The translations under genes and the position numbers were made by a program. Of a stretch of DNA of 64,000 nucleotides, positions 4,222-8,904 are shown in pieces. The notes beneath the pieces are model-generated. The model was not told the DNA's origin, made no database searches, and saw only the letters and a program-made list of their open reading frames with translations. Every line of letters begins with the position of its first letter. Position 1 is the first letter of the stretch. Origin of the DNA: Streptomyces spiramyceticus (GTDB taxonomy: Bacteria; Actinomycetota; Actinomycetes; Streptomycetales; Streptomycetaceae); the NCBI RefSeq assembly GCF_028807635.1, contig NZ_JARBAX010000001.1, positions 2,926,001-2,990,000 of the forward strand. Reading direction: 5' to 3'.

Positions 4222-4440
4222 CGGAGCACCCCTCAAGGTCATGCGATGCCCCAATACGGGCTACCGCTCGTCTGCGGCCGGGTAGGACCCTGAGCAAATT
4301 TCCCCATGAGCGGGCATACGCCAATCGCATAAGATGACGAGTGCACCCGAACGTGTCTCAAGTGCGGGCCCACCGGCCCCGCCACCCTGCCCCGGCAGCG
4401 GACTCCGGCTACCCTTCGGCCCGCGTGTCGGAGAGGCTGT
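4222..4440 (-). promoter_or_regulatory. Intergenic region expected to hold the rppA operon promoter
   Basis: A 219-bp gap between the phosphotransferase stop and the rppA start, both on the minus strand. It contains an A/T-rich stretch around 4300-4345 (minus-strand TTGAGA near 4355, then TTATG) that could be a promoter, but no element is convincing by eye. No ORF or strong terminator is seen. Confidence 0.35.
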
Positions 4441-6429
4441 TCAGGAGGCGGACGGCGTAAGTGTCGCCAGGGCAAGGCAAGGATTGTCCGTCCTGGCGCC
4501 CCGCAGACCGAGGGAAGCCGTGGCCGCCTGCAAGGTCATCGAGTACGAGTCGACGGCCCTGCGCACATTGGGCGCGTCCAGGCTCGCCCCGGTGACCAGA
4601 CGGTCGAGGTCCACGTAGGCGGAGCGGACGGTCTCGATCCAGCGGTACGTGCGCAGGTCCTGCTCCCAGCCGTCCACGTATGCGTCGCCGCGCGCCCCCA
4701 GCCTGCGTTCCCAGCGCTCGTACATCCGCCGCCGGATCTCGGGCCGGTGCGGGGTCAGGTGCAGATGGCGCACCAGGTCGTACAGCGGGTCGCCCACCAT
4801 CGCCATCTCCCAGTCGATGAGGACGAGTTGGCCGGACCGGTCGCCTCGGACGAGGTTCCAGGGGTTGAGGTCGCCGTGCAGCAGGACCGGGGCGCGCGGG
4901 GTGACGGTGTGCCGCGCCAGGATCTGCTTCAGCCGCTGTGCGCCGGGCAGGCCGAGAACGCGGGCCAGTTGGAGAGACTCCTTGGGCAGGGCGCCGACCA
5001 TCTCCACGAGACGGTCGCTCAGCCAGTGGTAGAAGCCGTCCTTGCCCATGGTGGGGTCGAGGGCGGCGGCGTCCACGTCGACCAGGGCGCAGAGCTGGTC
5101 GACGAGATCGTCGGCTTCGTGCGGCAGCAGGCCGTTGACCGGGTGGTTCGGCGGCCGTGACCCGTCGGCCGGGCCTTCGTAGGAGTGCACGGCGAACCGG
5201 TCCGACAGTGCGCTGACGCCCGTCGCGTAGATCCTGGGCGCCCGCACCCTGCCCCGCAGGCCTTCCAGTGCTTTCAGCACCACATGCTCATCGAGGAAGC
5301 ACGGCTCCCTGCGGCCGGCCGCGTTCAGTTTGCGGCGTACGACGACGGTGGCACCGGTGCTCGGGACCTGTACGACGGTATTGAGGTGCCCGGTGCCCTT
5401 GAACACCCGCCGGGCGGGGGCGGCTCCCTCCGCGGCGAGGGCCTCGGTCACCGCGCTCCAGGGGAAGGCGGGGTCTTCGGGAATGTGCTCGTCCGTCACC
5501 CAGGAGACGGCGGGCGAGGATGCGGGCAGGCAGGTTCCGGACCGGCCGACGCGGGCCGCGTGCCAGCGGTAGAGGATTCGCTCGATCTCGGCTCTGCCCG
5601 GCACGTCGGACAGCCTCAGCGGCTGCCGCGCGAGGCCGAGCGCCCGCTCCACGGCCTCCGCCGCCGCCTCCAGTCCCTCGGGCTGCTGCTCCCGCCCCAG
5701 GGATCTGGCCGCGAGCATCACGTCCGGATATACGGACTGGGCGTACTCGAAGTCCACGTAGTGGCGCAGGTCGGATTTCAGGCCGTTGGCGGCCGCCGGT
5801 CTCATCCGGAGCATGGCCCGGTACCAGGCGCGCTCGGCCTCCTCCCGCTGAGATTCGTCCGGGTACCGCATCCGCACGAGGTGGGTGGCCAGATCGTGCA
5901 GCGGGTCTCCGTACGTGGCCCGCCTCCAGTCCGCGCAGGTCACCGGCGGGTCCGCATGCGGGAAGACGATCACGTTGTCCCGGTGCAGGTCGGTATGGAG
6001 CAGGCCGAACGGGCGGCCGACCATGGGCGGCACCCGCGCGGCAAACGCCGTCAGAGCGTCCTCCGGGATTCCCAGGGCCGCGAACAGCCCGCCGAATTCG
6101 GGCCGGTTCGGCCGGCATACGTGCTGTTCGGTGAGCAGGGCCAGCTTGCGGAGGAACGACCGGCCGTGTCCGTCGCGGGGCCACTCCGGGGGCAGCCTGG
6201 GCAGGTCCTCCCGGCGCAGTACGGCCAGTTGCGCGAGGAGTCCGGCCAGCGCCTGGATCAGCCACGAGTCGACGGGCTTGCCGTTCTCACTGATGCTGGA
6301 GAGCCGCACGCCTTCCGCATACCTATGCAGAGGGTCGGGTGCGTGGGGCAGCACCTTTTTGACGGCGGCAAGGACCTGGGCTTCGTCCTGCCAGGTCCTG
6401 ATCACCACGGCCGCAGGGAGACTGCCCAC
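4441..6429 (-). CDS. Two-domain aminoglycoside phosphotransferase-family protein
   Basis: A 662-aa fusion of two APH-fold kinase domains. The first has LLHTDLHRDNVIV (H145, D147, N152) and the metal-binding ADW (D167) but only about 37 residues before its hinge-like segment, so it lacks most of an ATP-binding N-lobe. The second is complete: an N-lobe from about residue 340, LLHGDLNPWNLV (H518, D520, N525) and LIDWE (D539). The GTG start at 6429 has AGGAGAGG just upstream. It is the last gene of a GntR-HAD-APH operon, after a 140-bp gap. The substrate could be an antibiotic, sugar or amine; nothing in the sequence decides. Confidence 0.8.
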   Translation of the reverse strand: MGSLPAAVVIRTWQDEAQVLAAVKKVLPHAPDPLHRYAEGVRLSSISENGKPVDSWLIQALAGLLAQLAVLRREDLPRLPPEWPRDGHGRSFLRKLALLTEQHVCRPNRPEFGGLFAALGIPEDALTAFAARVPPMVGRPFGLLHTDLHRDNVIVFPHADPPVTCADWRRATYGDPLHDLATHLVRMRYPDESQREEAERAWYRAMLRMRPAAANGLKSDLRHYVDFEYAQSVYPDVMLAARSLGREQQPEGLEAAAEAVERALGLARQPLRLSDVPGRAEIERILYRWHAARVGRSGTCLPASSPAVSWVTDEHIPEDPAFPWSAVTEALAAEGAAPARRVFKGTGHLNTVVQVPSTGATVVVRRKLNAAGRREPCFLDEHVVLKALEGLRGRVRAPRIYATGVSALSDRFAVHSYEGPADGSRPPNHPVNGLLPHEADDLVDQLCALVDVDAAALDPTMGKDGFYHWLSDRLVEMVGALPKESLQLARVLGLPGAQRLKQILARHTVTPRAPVLLHGDLNPWNLVRGDRSGQLVLIDWEMAMVGDPLYDLVRHLHLTPHRPEIRRRMYERWERRLGARGDAYVDGWEQDLRTYRWIETVRSAYVDLDRLVTGASLDAPNVRRAVDSYSMTLQAATASLGLRGARTDNPCLALATLTPSAS

Positions 6430-6569: not shown

Positions 6570-7313
6570 TCAGGCCCGGCCCAGCTTCCGTACCAGGTGG
6601 AGCACCTGCCCCAGATCGTCGACGACCGTGGCCGCGCCCGCCTTGCGCAGGCGTTCCATGCGCGGCTGGTCGCGTCCGTAGCCGAGGAACCTCACGCCCG
6701 CCCGCCGGGCCGCGATCAGGTCCGAAGGCGTGTCGCCGATCATCAGGGAGGCTGCGGGGCGGGCACCCAGCGCGGTCAGGGCGCGGTTGAGGCAGTCCGG
6801 GGCCGGCTTCAGCCGGTCCAGGTCGGTGGTGCGGCCGTAGATGTGGGGTCTGAAACAGTCCGCGAGGCCGCGGCCGGTCAGGTACTGCTCCGCCACCAGC
6901 GGGGAATTGTTCGTCGTGATCGCGAGGCGGCTTCCGACAGCGCGCCAGGTGCGTATCAGCGGATCGGCATAGGGCGTGGGGCGGGCGGTGGCGGCTGCCC
7001 GCAGCTCCTCGCGGGTGAGTTTCTCCTCCAGCGCCTCGACCAGGTCGCTGCCGGGATGCATCCGGGCCACGGCCTTCAGTACGTCCTGCGGGTCGTCCGA
7101 GCCCAGTTCCTCCTCCGTCAGCAGTACATGCCGGCCGCGCTTCTCCAGCCAGTCGACCAGGCTGTCCGCCACCCGGTGTGCCTGGTGTCCGGCGAACAGC
7201 CGGCAGATGGGGCCGTCGAAATCGAAGAGCACACATTCCGCACCCGTGATCAAATCCCGCACTTTTTCGATCACAGATGCCGCCTGTCCGGTTTGAGTCG
7301 CGTCAGAAGTCAC
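6570..7313 (-). CDS. HAD-family hydrolase (phosphatase)
   Basis: A 247-aa haloacid-dehalogenase-fold phosphatase with all four motifs: I, FDFDGP with the nucleophile Asp; II, TTNNS; III, the Lys of KPAP; IV, GDTPSDL. The helical cap between I and II suggests a small-molecule phosphate substrate. The GTG start overlaps the GntR stop (TAGTG), so it is translationally coupled. Its place between a regulator and a kinase-fold protein suggests one phosphorylates and the other dephosphorylates the same compound, which is inference. Confidence 0.85.
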   Translation of the reverse strand: MTSDATQTGQAASVIEKVRDLITGAECVLFDFDGPICRLFAGHQAHRVADSLVDWLEKRGRHVLLTEEELGSDDPQDVLKAVARMHPGSDLVEALEEKLTREELRAAATARPTPYADPLIRTWRAVGSRLAITTNNSPLVAEQYLTGRGLADCFRPHIYGRTTDLDRLKPAPDCLNRALTALGARPAASLMIGDTPSDLIAARRAGVRFLGYGRDQPRMERLRKAGAATVVDDLGQVLHLVRKLGRA

Positions 7314-8194
7314 TAAGAGAGTGTCAGGTCCGACGTGATGGTGTTCCAGAGTGCGTTGAACCAAGTCTGGGACTCCTCAACGAACTTGGCGTTGCGCGCA
7401 CCCTCGTCCGAACCGAACGAGAACAGCAGCGATTTGAGGCCGAGCGTGTCGTACATCTCCGTCGTCACGTCCTCGATCTCCTCCTCCCGCTTCTGGATCA
7501 TGTAGTAGCCGAACAGCGCCTCGGAGCCGTTGAGGAGGTAGAGCTTCACGGGCGGCGTGAACGGCAGCGCCCGGAATGTCACCCTGACGTCGATGCCGTG
7601 CGAGCGCCGCAGCGCCAGCAGGTTGTGGCGCAGCACCTGCCCCTGGGAGTTGCGCTGGGCGAGCCAGCGCTCGTGGACCGGGCCGTCGTCGGTCGGGTCC
7701 ACCACCGGGGTGGGGAAGGCCAGCGCGATCTCCCGGCTCGGGAGCAGGATCCGGGCCTCCACGGTTTCCGGCCTGATGCGGCCTTCGTGGATCTGCCGCA
7801 GCGGCTCGCCCAGCGCGATCGTCAGCGACTCCGAGGTCAGGCTGACCGCGTCGATGCGCACCTGGGGTTCCGCGAAGGCCGTGGTGATGCGCGGCCCCAG
7901 GCTGACCATCGTCGGCTGCGCCTGCTCCGGCGCCGCAGGTGCGCCGGGCGGTGTGTCCGCGATACGGGCCGGAGCGCCCCGCGTGACACCGGTGAGGAGG
8001 CCCTCCTCCTGGAGGACCCGCAGCGCCTTGCGGATCGTGCCGCGCTCGACGCCGAACTCGCCGGCCAGGCGGGTCTGCGTCGGCATGGGGTTCCCGGCCT
8101 TGAGGTCACCGCTGTGGATGCGCTCGCGCAGGGCGTCCGCCACTTCCACGTACGAGAGCTTTCTGCCGTTCACTGTCAGCTTCTCCTGGTTCAC
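7313..8194 (-). CDS. GntR-family transcriptional regulator
   Basis: A 293-aa regulator with an N-terminal winged helix (about residues 14-75; QTRLAGEFGVERGTIRKALRV is the recognition region) and a large C-terminal domain I cannot assign to FadR, HutC/UTRA or MocR classes. It opens the minus-strand operon with the HAD and APH genes and diverges from two plus-strand genes for 62-aa membrane proteins. Repeated AGTTGG/CCAACT sites in the shared region are candidate operators for it. Confidence 0.85.
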   Translation of the reverse strand: MNQEKLTVNGRKLSYVEVADALRERIHSGDLKAGNPMPTQTRLAGEFGVERGTIRKALRVLQEEGLLTGVTRGAPARIADTPPGAPAAPEQAQPTMVSLGPRITTAFAEPQVRIDAVSLTSESLTIALGEPLRQIHEGRIRPETVEARILLPSREIALAFPTPVVDPTDDGPVHERWLAQRNSQGQVLRHNLLALRRSHGIDVRVTFRALPFTPPVKLYLLNGSEALFGYYMIQKREEEIEDVTTEMYDTLGLKSLLFSFGSDEGARNAKFVEESQTWFNALWNTITSDLTLS

Positions 8195-8205
8195 AACTCG
8201 ACGCT

Positions 8206-8296
8206 ACAACTACTCGCCATCTAACGGGAGTTGTTTGCAAGTTGTTTATTCACCTCGGCCAAGTGGGCACAAACTTGGTGTAGTTGGTTGCCAACT
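8206..8296. promoter_or_regulatory. Divergent operator region, copy 1 (GntR candidate sites)
   Basis: Three inverted repeats are stacked here: ACAACT at 8206-8211 with AGTTGT at 8229-8234; CCAAGT at 8259-8264 with ACTTGG at 8273-8278; and AGTTGG-TTG-CCAACT at 8282-8296. The same set recurs upstream of the second microprotein gene (8570-8660). They sit between the GntR gene and the first microprotein gene, so both directions could be controlled. Confidence 0.7.
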
Positions 8297-8357
8297 CGAC
8301 CGACTTGGCGAAGCCAGCACCAGCCCCTCGCAGCCCCGCCCCGAAGGAGGGACCACC

Positions 8358-8546
8358 ATGCCCGCGCTCCTGTTGCTCGCCGTTGTTGTCGTCGTCGGGT
8401 TCGAGAAGTTCGCCGAGTGGCAGTACGGCACCCTCAGCGCCGTAGGGCTGCTGCTGATCGCCGTCGGCGTCAAGGCCAAGAGCCCCACCTGCGCCGGAAT
8501 CGGGGCCGTGGTGATCGCCATGCAGGTGACCGGCCCGACGGCCTGA
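8358..8546 (+). CDS. 62-aa hydrophobic membrane protein, paralogue 1
   Basis: A 62-aa protein of two hydrophobic segments (about residues 3-14 and 25-58) around an acidic-aromatic motif FEKFAEWQYG at 15-24, with a GVKAKSPTC turn near residue 37. A strong AAGGAGG lies 7 nt before the ATG. It aligns end to end with the next gene (same length; shared E-x4-WQ-[YF]-G and GVKAK). I do not recognise a family. Position and shared operators tie it to the divergent GntR-HAD-APH operon. Confidence 0.8.
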   Translation: MPALLLLAVVVVVGFEKFAEWQYGTLSAVGLLLIAVGVKAKSPTCAGIGAVVIAMQVTGPTA

Positions 8547-8569
8547 ACCACATCTCCGACACAACTTCT

Positions 8570-8660
8570 CCAACTCCGCACTATTTAGCGGGAGTTGGAA
8601 GCGGAATGGTTACCTCTCGATCCAAGTGGGGGACAACTTCCTTAGAGTTGGTGGCCAACT
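8570..8660 (+). promoter_or_regulatory. Operator region, copy 2, before the second microprotein
   Basis: CCAACTCCGC at 8570-8579 pairs with GCGGGAGTTGG at 8588-8598, and a 15-bp AGTTGG-TGG-CCAACT lies at 8646-8660. CCAAGTGGG at 8621-8629 matches the CCAAGTGGG of copy 1. The order and spacing match the region at 8206-8296, so promoter and gene appear to have been duplicated together. Confidence 0.7.
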
Positions 8661-8715
8661 TGAACAACCTGGCCAACCAGCTGCCAAGTGGGACGAATCC
8701 CAGGGAGGGACCGCA

Positions 8716-8904
8716 ATGCCGCTCATCGCCATCCTCCTCGCCGCAGTCTTCTTCACCCTCGAAGAGCTCATCCAGTGGCAGTTCGGCGCCATGGGTCTGG
8801 TCGCCGTCGCCCTGCTGTCCATCGGCGTAAAGGCCAAGAACACGGCATGCCTGAGCCTCGGCGCCATCGTTCTGGTCCTGCTCTTACAGCCCGCGTTCGG
8901 CTAG
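8716..8904 (+). CDS. 62-aa hydrophobic membrane protein, paralogue 2
   Basis: A 62-aa protein with the same plan as its upstream neighbour: hydrophobic N-terminus, acidic-aromatic motif LEELIQWQFG (about 15-24), GVKAKNTAC turn, and a hydrophobic C-terminal segment. The ATG follows AGGGAGGG by about 6 nt. Two paralogues of identical length, each with its own copy of the control region, argue that these are real expressed genes. Two-span inner-membrane topology is inferred from hydrophobicity; function unknown. Confidence 0.8.
   Translation: MPLIAILLAAVFFTLEELIQWQFGAMGLVAVALLSIGVKAKNTACLSLGAIVLVLLLQPAFG

Follow-up and report, generated by a model that had tools for sequence, protein, structure and literature searches.

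Two adjacent genes in Streptomyces spiramyceticus each encode a hydrophobic protein of exactly 62 amino acids, each is preceded by the same ordered set of control elements, and both diverge from a gene for a GntR-type regulator. What are these genes, and what controls them? We analysed a 64,000-nucleotide stretch of contig NZ_JARBAX010000001.1 (positions 2,926,001 to 2,990,000; hereafter the window, in whose coordinates all features are given). The locus is dev, known from Streptomyces, with devA as the GntR gene, devB as the neighbouring HAD-family gene and two devC paralogues as the small genes (devC1, product S1; devC2, product S2). By its gene content and sequence, it is a dev locus from which the second regulator gene, devE, has been deleted. 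We consider it probable that DevA represses devC1, devC2 and devA-devB until it senses a metabolite, and that devC is driven by a sporulation sigma factor.

The preliminary description of this DNA knew of no described system of this form. This is contradicted by PMC3187754, where a dev locus comprising devA, devB, devC and devE is described in S. coelicolor. According to the main text of that paper, DevA is negatively autoregulated and devA and devE mutants have sporulation defects. The same text mentions devC twice, within a single passage, and leaves it a small, unstudied ORF; it reports a duplicate of the devC type for S. sviceus and S. coelicolor only, and does not contain the word "operator". 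The published 45-nt devA upstream flank, an oligonucleotide given in that text, is matched exactly at two loci of our set (L037, L039), and their devC2 product (6269 Da, pI 9.52) fits the values published in the relevant part of PMC2000904 for SCO4187 (6268 Da, pI 9.5).

The control regions of the two devC genes have an identical order, and in each the operator lies 75 bp from the start of the outer repeat and 38 bp from that of the promoter (repeats and operators are given without strand). Upstream of devC1, an outer inverted repeat, CAACT-N17-AGTTG (8207..8233), probably lies over the minus-strand devA promoter, where it may serve as an autoregulation site. It is followed on the plus strand by a SigB-like promoter (8244..8270; -35 GTTTAT at 8244-8249, a 15-bp spacer ending in CCAAGT, -10 GGGCAC at 8265-8270) and by a putative operator, AGTTGG-N3-CCAACT (8282..8296), at about +6 to +20 of the probable transcript. 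Upstream of devC2 are a second CAACT-N17-AGTTG repeat (8571..8597), at the likely place of the former devE promoter, a plus-strand SigB-like promoter (8608..8634; GGTTAC-N15-GGGGAC) and a second putative operator, an exact copy of the 15-mer that is conserved across the family (8646..8660). The exact operator 15-mer occurs at only these two places in the 7.08-Mb genome. With up to 2 mismatches it is also confined to these places in the window, where chance predicts 1.1 matches and at least 2 arose in 31 of 100 shuffles; for this pair it is exactness and position that count, not the number of such matches.

The ordered elements noted at the outset are real, conserved and equally spaced, with the exception that CCAAGTGGG, first listed as an element of its own, is part of the promoter. 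It occurs three times in the window (8259, 8622 and 8684), not two, and in copy 1 CCAAGT closes the promoter spacer and the GGG of CCAAGTGGG opens the SigB-like -10. We rejected it as an independent operator given this overlap with the -10 and the SigF/SigH/SigN dependence reported for the orthologous S. coelicolor promoter. The third copy (8684-8692) lies in the devC2 leader, just 5' of the ribosome-binding site.

Is the operator a conserved feature of devC genes? We compared 127 devC genes from 87 loci (one locus from each of 85 genomes of a genus draw, the window's own included, plus the near relatives Streptomyces sp. ISL-98 and A3M-1-3; an extra weak match in G123, on another contig, was left out). 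AGTTGG-N3-CCAACT is present at 11-12 of 12 positions upstream of 101 of the 127 (0.03 expected), and we regard this conservation across units as decisive that the observation is real. The geometry is also kept. Promoter -35 and operator are 38 bp apart in 62 units and 37 bp apart in 5, and the 101 operator units have CAACT at -75 (86 units), AGTT at -53 (85) and CCAA at -23 (81). The spacer of many relatives resembles a weaker operator (e.g., AGATGGCTGCCAAGT in L102), placed 32 bp (some three turns of the helix) upstream of the strong one. In the window, just the CCAAGT half of this weaker site can be made out. A possible leader hairpin, CCAACT-N6-AGTTGG, right behind the operator was considered and dropped, its downstream half being at the fixed offset in only 40 of the 101 units.

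A SigB-like promoter pattern (-35 GTTT, spacer of about 12-15 bp, -10 GGGnA) was found anywhere within 260 bp upstream of 88 of the 127 devC units (7.5 expected), and in the window it occurs at 8244-8270; copy 2 has GGTTAC as its -35. The passages of PMC8346170 that treat the S. coelicolor promoter SCO4189p report dependence on SigF, SigH and SigN in an E. coli two-plasmid system, a -35 of GTTTAT and a -10 of GGGGAC, with transcription starting 7 nt further on. L037 and L039 match 43 of 44 bases of this published promoter, and their operator starts 5 bp past its transcript start. The window devC promoters appear to be of the SigF/H/N type, the dependence itself being reported for SCO4189p only. 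In devE-side devC2 genes most -10 elements read GGagAT and not GGGnAC (31-unit consensus; e.g., L037, L071, L106), which suggests a different sigma preference. The devC2 copies of the window, ISL-98 and L054 have GGGGAC.

Which protein would bind the operator? The preliminary description proposed that the GntR operon could share it, and the operator does mostly track the GntR class: it is present in 86 of 97 units beside a GntR gene of the DevA/DevE class (at least 280 bits), in 11 of 14 at 150-279 bits and in 0 of 8 below 150 bits. It is also present in 4 of the 8 units that have no GntR gene directly upstream, namely the devC2 copies of the window, ISL-98, L040 and L043. Exact sites remain beside devE after devC2 loss (L149, L150, G013). 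We selected 32 genomes of the draw, 27 carrying devC and 5 lacking it. Exact sites were found in 29: 45 sites are no more than 3 kb from devC and 10 are elsewhere, against 38 occurrences of a reversed control pattern genome-wide; one of the 45 (in G103) adjoins a further GntR gene. Thus, as far as these genome sequences go, exact sites cluster at the dev locus and not elsewhere. Taken together, there is good comparative evidence that DevA and DevE bind AGTTGG-N3-CCAACT.

A large DevA regulon was considered and rejected, as sites with up to one mismatch are about as frequent as the reversed control (11 versus 9 in the own genome; 121 versus 113 in eight genomes). The nine one-mismatch sites of the own genome all lie inside open frames of at least 150 codons, which is weak evidence in GC-rich DNA.

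Binding could instead serve the autoregulation of devA (and formerly of devE) only, with the devC genes as passengers of a SigB-like sigma factor that escape any meaningful DevA control. This is consistent with one locus (L151) that lost both devC genes and retains both operators, and with the 17 of 101 GntR-bearing genomes that have no devC, although only 3 of these 17 have a strong DevA-type match. However, the 15-mer lies 38 bp from the devC -35 in 62 units, at about +6 to +20 of the transcript, a classic roadblock position, and it was retained before devC2 in four loci (the window, ISL-98, L040 and L043) from which devE has gone. We judge this alternative unlikely.

We therefore return to control of devC by DevA. 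In the circuit that we propose, DevA (and DevE where present) would bind AGTTGG-N3-CCAACT shortly after the point where each devC transcript begins and, in many relatives, also the weaker spacer site, 32 bp upstream and on the same DNA face. Binding of DevA to the outer repeat over its own promoter would give self-repression, and DevA at all of these sites would jointly repress devC1, devC2 and devA-devB. A metabolite bound by the C-terminal domain of DevA would then cause its release from DNA, allowing polymerase with a sigma factor of the SigF, SigH or SigN type to transcribe devC for production of the 62-aa proteins. Because the sigma-dependent promoter would be gated by DevA, devC would need two inputs, a developmental sigma factor and the DevA ligand. 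Given the mutant phenotypes reported for devA and devE, and the way the operators cluster, DevC is likely a direct effector of a DevA/DevE checkpoint in aerial growth and septation.

The predicted structure of DevA offers a candidate for the sensor. The devA gene (7313..8194, minus strand) may truly start at a GTG at 8173 that is preceded by AGGAG. Its product has a GntR-type DNA-binding domain (Pfam GntR, 60.5 bits, E 1.2e-16), and its AlphaFold model (pLDDT 92) shows a phospholipase-D (PLD)-like alpha/beta fold, with structural matches to Nuc and TrmB. The catalytic HxKx4D motif is not conserved: among 38 sequences, position 215 is never H, K217 is present in all 38, and D is absent from position 222, which holds N in 36 sequences and R in the other 2. 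We predict that the effector domain is a catalytically dead phospholipase-D fold, similar to that of archaeal TrmB.

Several observations weigh against the proposed circuit. At the level of the operator, 26 of the 127 units lack a site at 11 or more of 12 positions; of these, 11 lie beside a GntR gene of the DevA/DevE class, 3 beside one of 150-279 bits, 8 beside one below 150 bits, and 4 have no GntR gene directly upstream. One genome (G094) has devC yet no exact site at the locus. Of three genomes that carry a strong DevA-type gene without devC, L151 alone keeps operators; L152 and L153 have none (best 8 and 9 of 12). The regulator can thus occur without the site, which slightly lowers our confidence. 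The site counts may also be compatible with a DevA regulon of weaker sites. For devC2 genes as a whole the assignment to a sigma factor is less secure, since most devE-side promoters have GGagAT, and the promoter pattern also occurs in 5 of the 8 units with a distant GntR gene and so is not tied to DevA. The sensor fold comes from a predicted whole-protein model with low Foldseek TM-scores (0.28-0.36 for TrmBL2). Finally, the main text of PMC3187754 ascribes the devA phenotype to misexpression of devB and gives devC no role; our data do not decide between devB and devC as its cause.

Are the DevC proteins themselves made and useful? As first described, devC1 (8358..8546, plus strand) and devC2 (8716..8904, plus strand) encode paralogues with a shared plan: both products are exactly 62 aa, both carry E-x4-WQ-[YF]-G and GVKAK, and their identity over 55 aa is 35% (E 5e-13). 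S1, the partner of devA, groups with devC copies that adjoin devA. S2 is an orthologue of devE-associated devC, with its devE partner missing. Upstream of the two ORFs are the ribosome-binding-site-like sequences GGAGGGA or GGGAGGGA. Hydropathy indicates that DevC is probably a membrane protein. Residues conserved among 61 members include an acidic residue at 16 (in 58) and basic residues at 39 (56) and 41 (53). The AlphaFold model is of low confidence (pLDDT 62, pTM 0.32), with two helices (3-39 and 44-61), and a sequence search of solved structures returned nothing up to E 1.

We compared 16 hand-picked devC pairs for selection. All 13 within-clade pairs that have a synonymous change show dN below dS (ratios 0 to 0.46); two more, of which one has two amino-acid changes, lack any synonymous change; S1 versus S2 gives a dN/dS of 0.86. 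Because dN is below dS within clades, the DevC proteins are probably real, and the early view that both genes are probably under selection is supported.

Profile searches with the two window proteins gave no supported match: the best Pfam E is 0.15 and misses the cut-off, NCBIfam NF047321 reaches 20.5 bits where 45 are required, the best PHROGs E is 0.72, and no PADLOC model matches at E 0.01. Membership of a known defence, toxin or phage family was rejected on these results. Four of the 61 family members match DUF7519 (best 1.8e-4) and four DUF3309 (best 1.8e-3), with cut-offs not shown.

devC is widespread within the genus. A single-sequence search found it in 85 of the 150 genomes of the genus draw, and a profile search returned the same 85. 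It was found in 37 of 121 genomes of a family draw (4 of 17 genera) and in 10 of 396 genomes of a phylum draw, all of the same genus (up to 16 candidates were scored per genome). The pair and the GntR operon were expected to co-occur across Streptomyces, and 84 of the 85 devC-bearing genomes also carry the GntR gene; of the others in the draw, 1 has devC only, 17 GntR only and 48 neither (Fisher p 1.6e-23, not corrected for relatedness). The strong DevA-type matches among the 17 are confined to G010, G020 and G080. The devC-only genome, G085, keeps devC2 and has lost devA, devB, devC1 and the devC2 promoter. Its orphan devC2 (L032/L154, contig 152, about 4355-4540) is 94% identical to S2, and the upstream promoter and operator are gone, a natural deletion.

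This distribution bears on a further alternative, that DevC is a small hydrophobic toxin-like protein silenced by DevA, with the regulator acting as a safety catch rather than a developmental switch. Such a role fits the 27 loci (patterns bACA or gbACA) in which devE persists and devC2 is absent, the finding that no unit with a promoter pattern, among the 127, lacks a GntR gene in the same locus, and the loss of the promoter from the sole orphan. Against it, the window proteins match neither PADLOC nor Pfam at the thresholds given above, and the sporulation-sigma promoter and the dN below dS in 13 of 13 pairs fit a useful cell protein equally well. We consider a toxin-like DevC quite improbable.

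How did the two copies arise? The preliminary description read them as a local duplication of a microprotein cassette, and S1 and S2 are indeed adjacent, of equal length and preceded by elements in the same order. A recent tandem duplication of one cassette in the window lineage is nevertheless very hard to credit. devC1 and devC2 lie on opposite sides of one tree branch (support 92/91), and an approximately unbiased (AU) test rejects a single clade of S1, S2 and their ISL orthologues (p 0.020; the thinned alignment held 71 of 103 rows and 62 columns, and the bootstrap had not settled). The sister of S2 is the devC2 of L054, which still has a GntR gene (devE) alongside. A GntR gene lies between the devC genes in 32 of the 36 loci that have at least two, the other four being those of the window, ISL-98, L040 and L043. 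Because of the tree split and these intervening GntR genes, we infer that the unit duplicated was a GntR gene with devC and its control region, and that devE was later lost in the window lineage. The devC1-devC2 gap in the window is only 169 bp, the locus has one GntR match and no second GntR paralogue beside devC2, and at E 1e-10 the C-terminal part of DevA is found once in the own genome. The reverse loss, with devE kept and devC2 gone, is commoner (the 27 loci above).

Further devC-like genes were observed elsewhere. In another genus of the family (L140-L143), devC-like ORFs are close together or repeated near GntR genes, apparently an independent doubling; L142 and L143 have SigB-like promoters, all four lack AGTTGG-N3-CCAACT, and TCAACT/AGTTGA-type arms were seen by eye upstream in L142-L148. 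A third, more distant devC-like gene without the operator occurs in the neighbourhood at L041, L042, L044 and L095, and in three of these it adjoins its own distant GntR gene, forming further paralogous GntR/devC pairs.

The chromosomal neighbourhood is also conserved, with a kinase neighbour that differs from locus to locus. Directly downstream of devA and co-oriented with it, devB (6570..7364, minus strand, start uncertain) overlaps the devA end, encodes a HAD-family hydrolase and putative phosphatase (Pfam Hydrolase, 2.2e-19), and is adjacent to devA in relatives. An APH-type kinase region (4441..6408, minus strand; Pfam APH, 5.7e-38, in 2 stretches) lies downstream of devB and may belong to the operon; one open frame here holds two APH-like kinase parts. 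We searched 23 loci for the wider neighbourhood (the window's own, L048, is counted, and G085 is entered twice, as L032 and L053). A related kinase is present in 19, with only 32-44% identity in 13 of these, and two or three of the dev neighbours GNAT, asparaginase and dtd are present in 21 (one in L038 and L044). An origin from a mobile element was rejected, as S2 has no match in plasmids or phages and the neighbourhood is conserved among genomes.

What would the circuit mean for the dev system? The initial observation stands as a whole and is sharper than first stated; its interpretation was half right, holding for selection, the operator-GntR link and co-occurrence and failing for novelty, local duplication and CCAAGTGGG as an operator. 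Tentatively, DevA and DevE may control little beyond the dev locus, the mutant sporulation defects may run through devB and DevC, and DevC may be a two-input effector gated by a dead-PLD sensor. If control beyond the locus is indeed slight, the devC2 microprotein would be nearly the only direct output of devE, and DevC would be an effector of aerial growth and septation gated by SigF/H/N and by metabolite-responsive DevA/E, via a dead phospholipase-D sensor on a GntR protein. A literature search found no paper on this combination. In the main texts and passages covered, devB is the only devA/devE target reported besides devA itself, and neither an operator nor an effector-domain fold is given. 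Our analysis supplies a strongly conserved candidate operator, its geometry on a sporulation-sigma promoter, a sensor fold predicted for DevA and the clustering of exact sites at one locus. A developmental regulator that was only vaguely understood thus becomes a directly testable circuit, the prime candidate output of which is a neglected family of about 60 residues carried by 85 of 150 genomes of the genus.

In sum, a known locus occurs here in variant form, and we did not find its regulatory architecture described in the literature searched. DevA differs from archaeal sugar regulators of the TrmB type (2f5t) in its GntR winged helix; identity is 7%, and the DevA fold is predicted. Relative to SCO4189p as given in PMC8346170, the window devC1 promoter shares the -35 GTTTAT, the 15-bp spacer ending in CCAAGT and a -10 of the form GGGnAC, which reads GGGCAC in devC1 and GGGGAC, with -35 GGTTAC, in devC2. 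The S. coelicolor dev locus (SCO4187-SCO4190 region) has in common with the window a GntR regulator adjoining a HAD hydrolase and a divergent small ORF. Unlike that locus, the window lacks devE, and its devC2 is retained beside devA alone.
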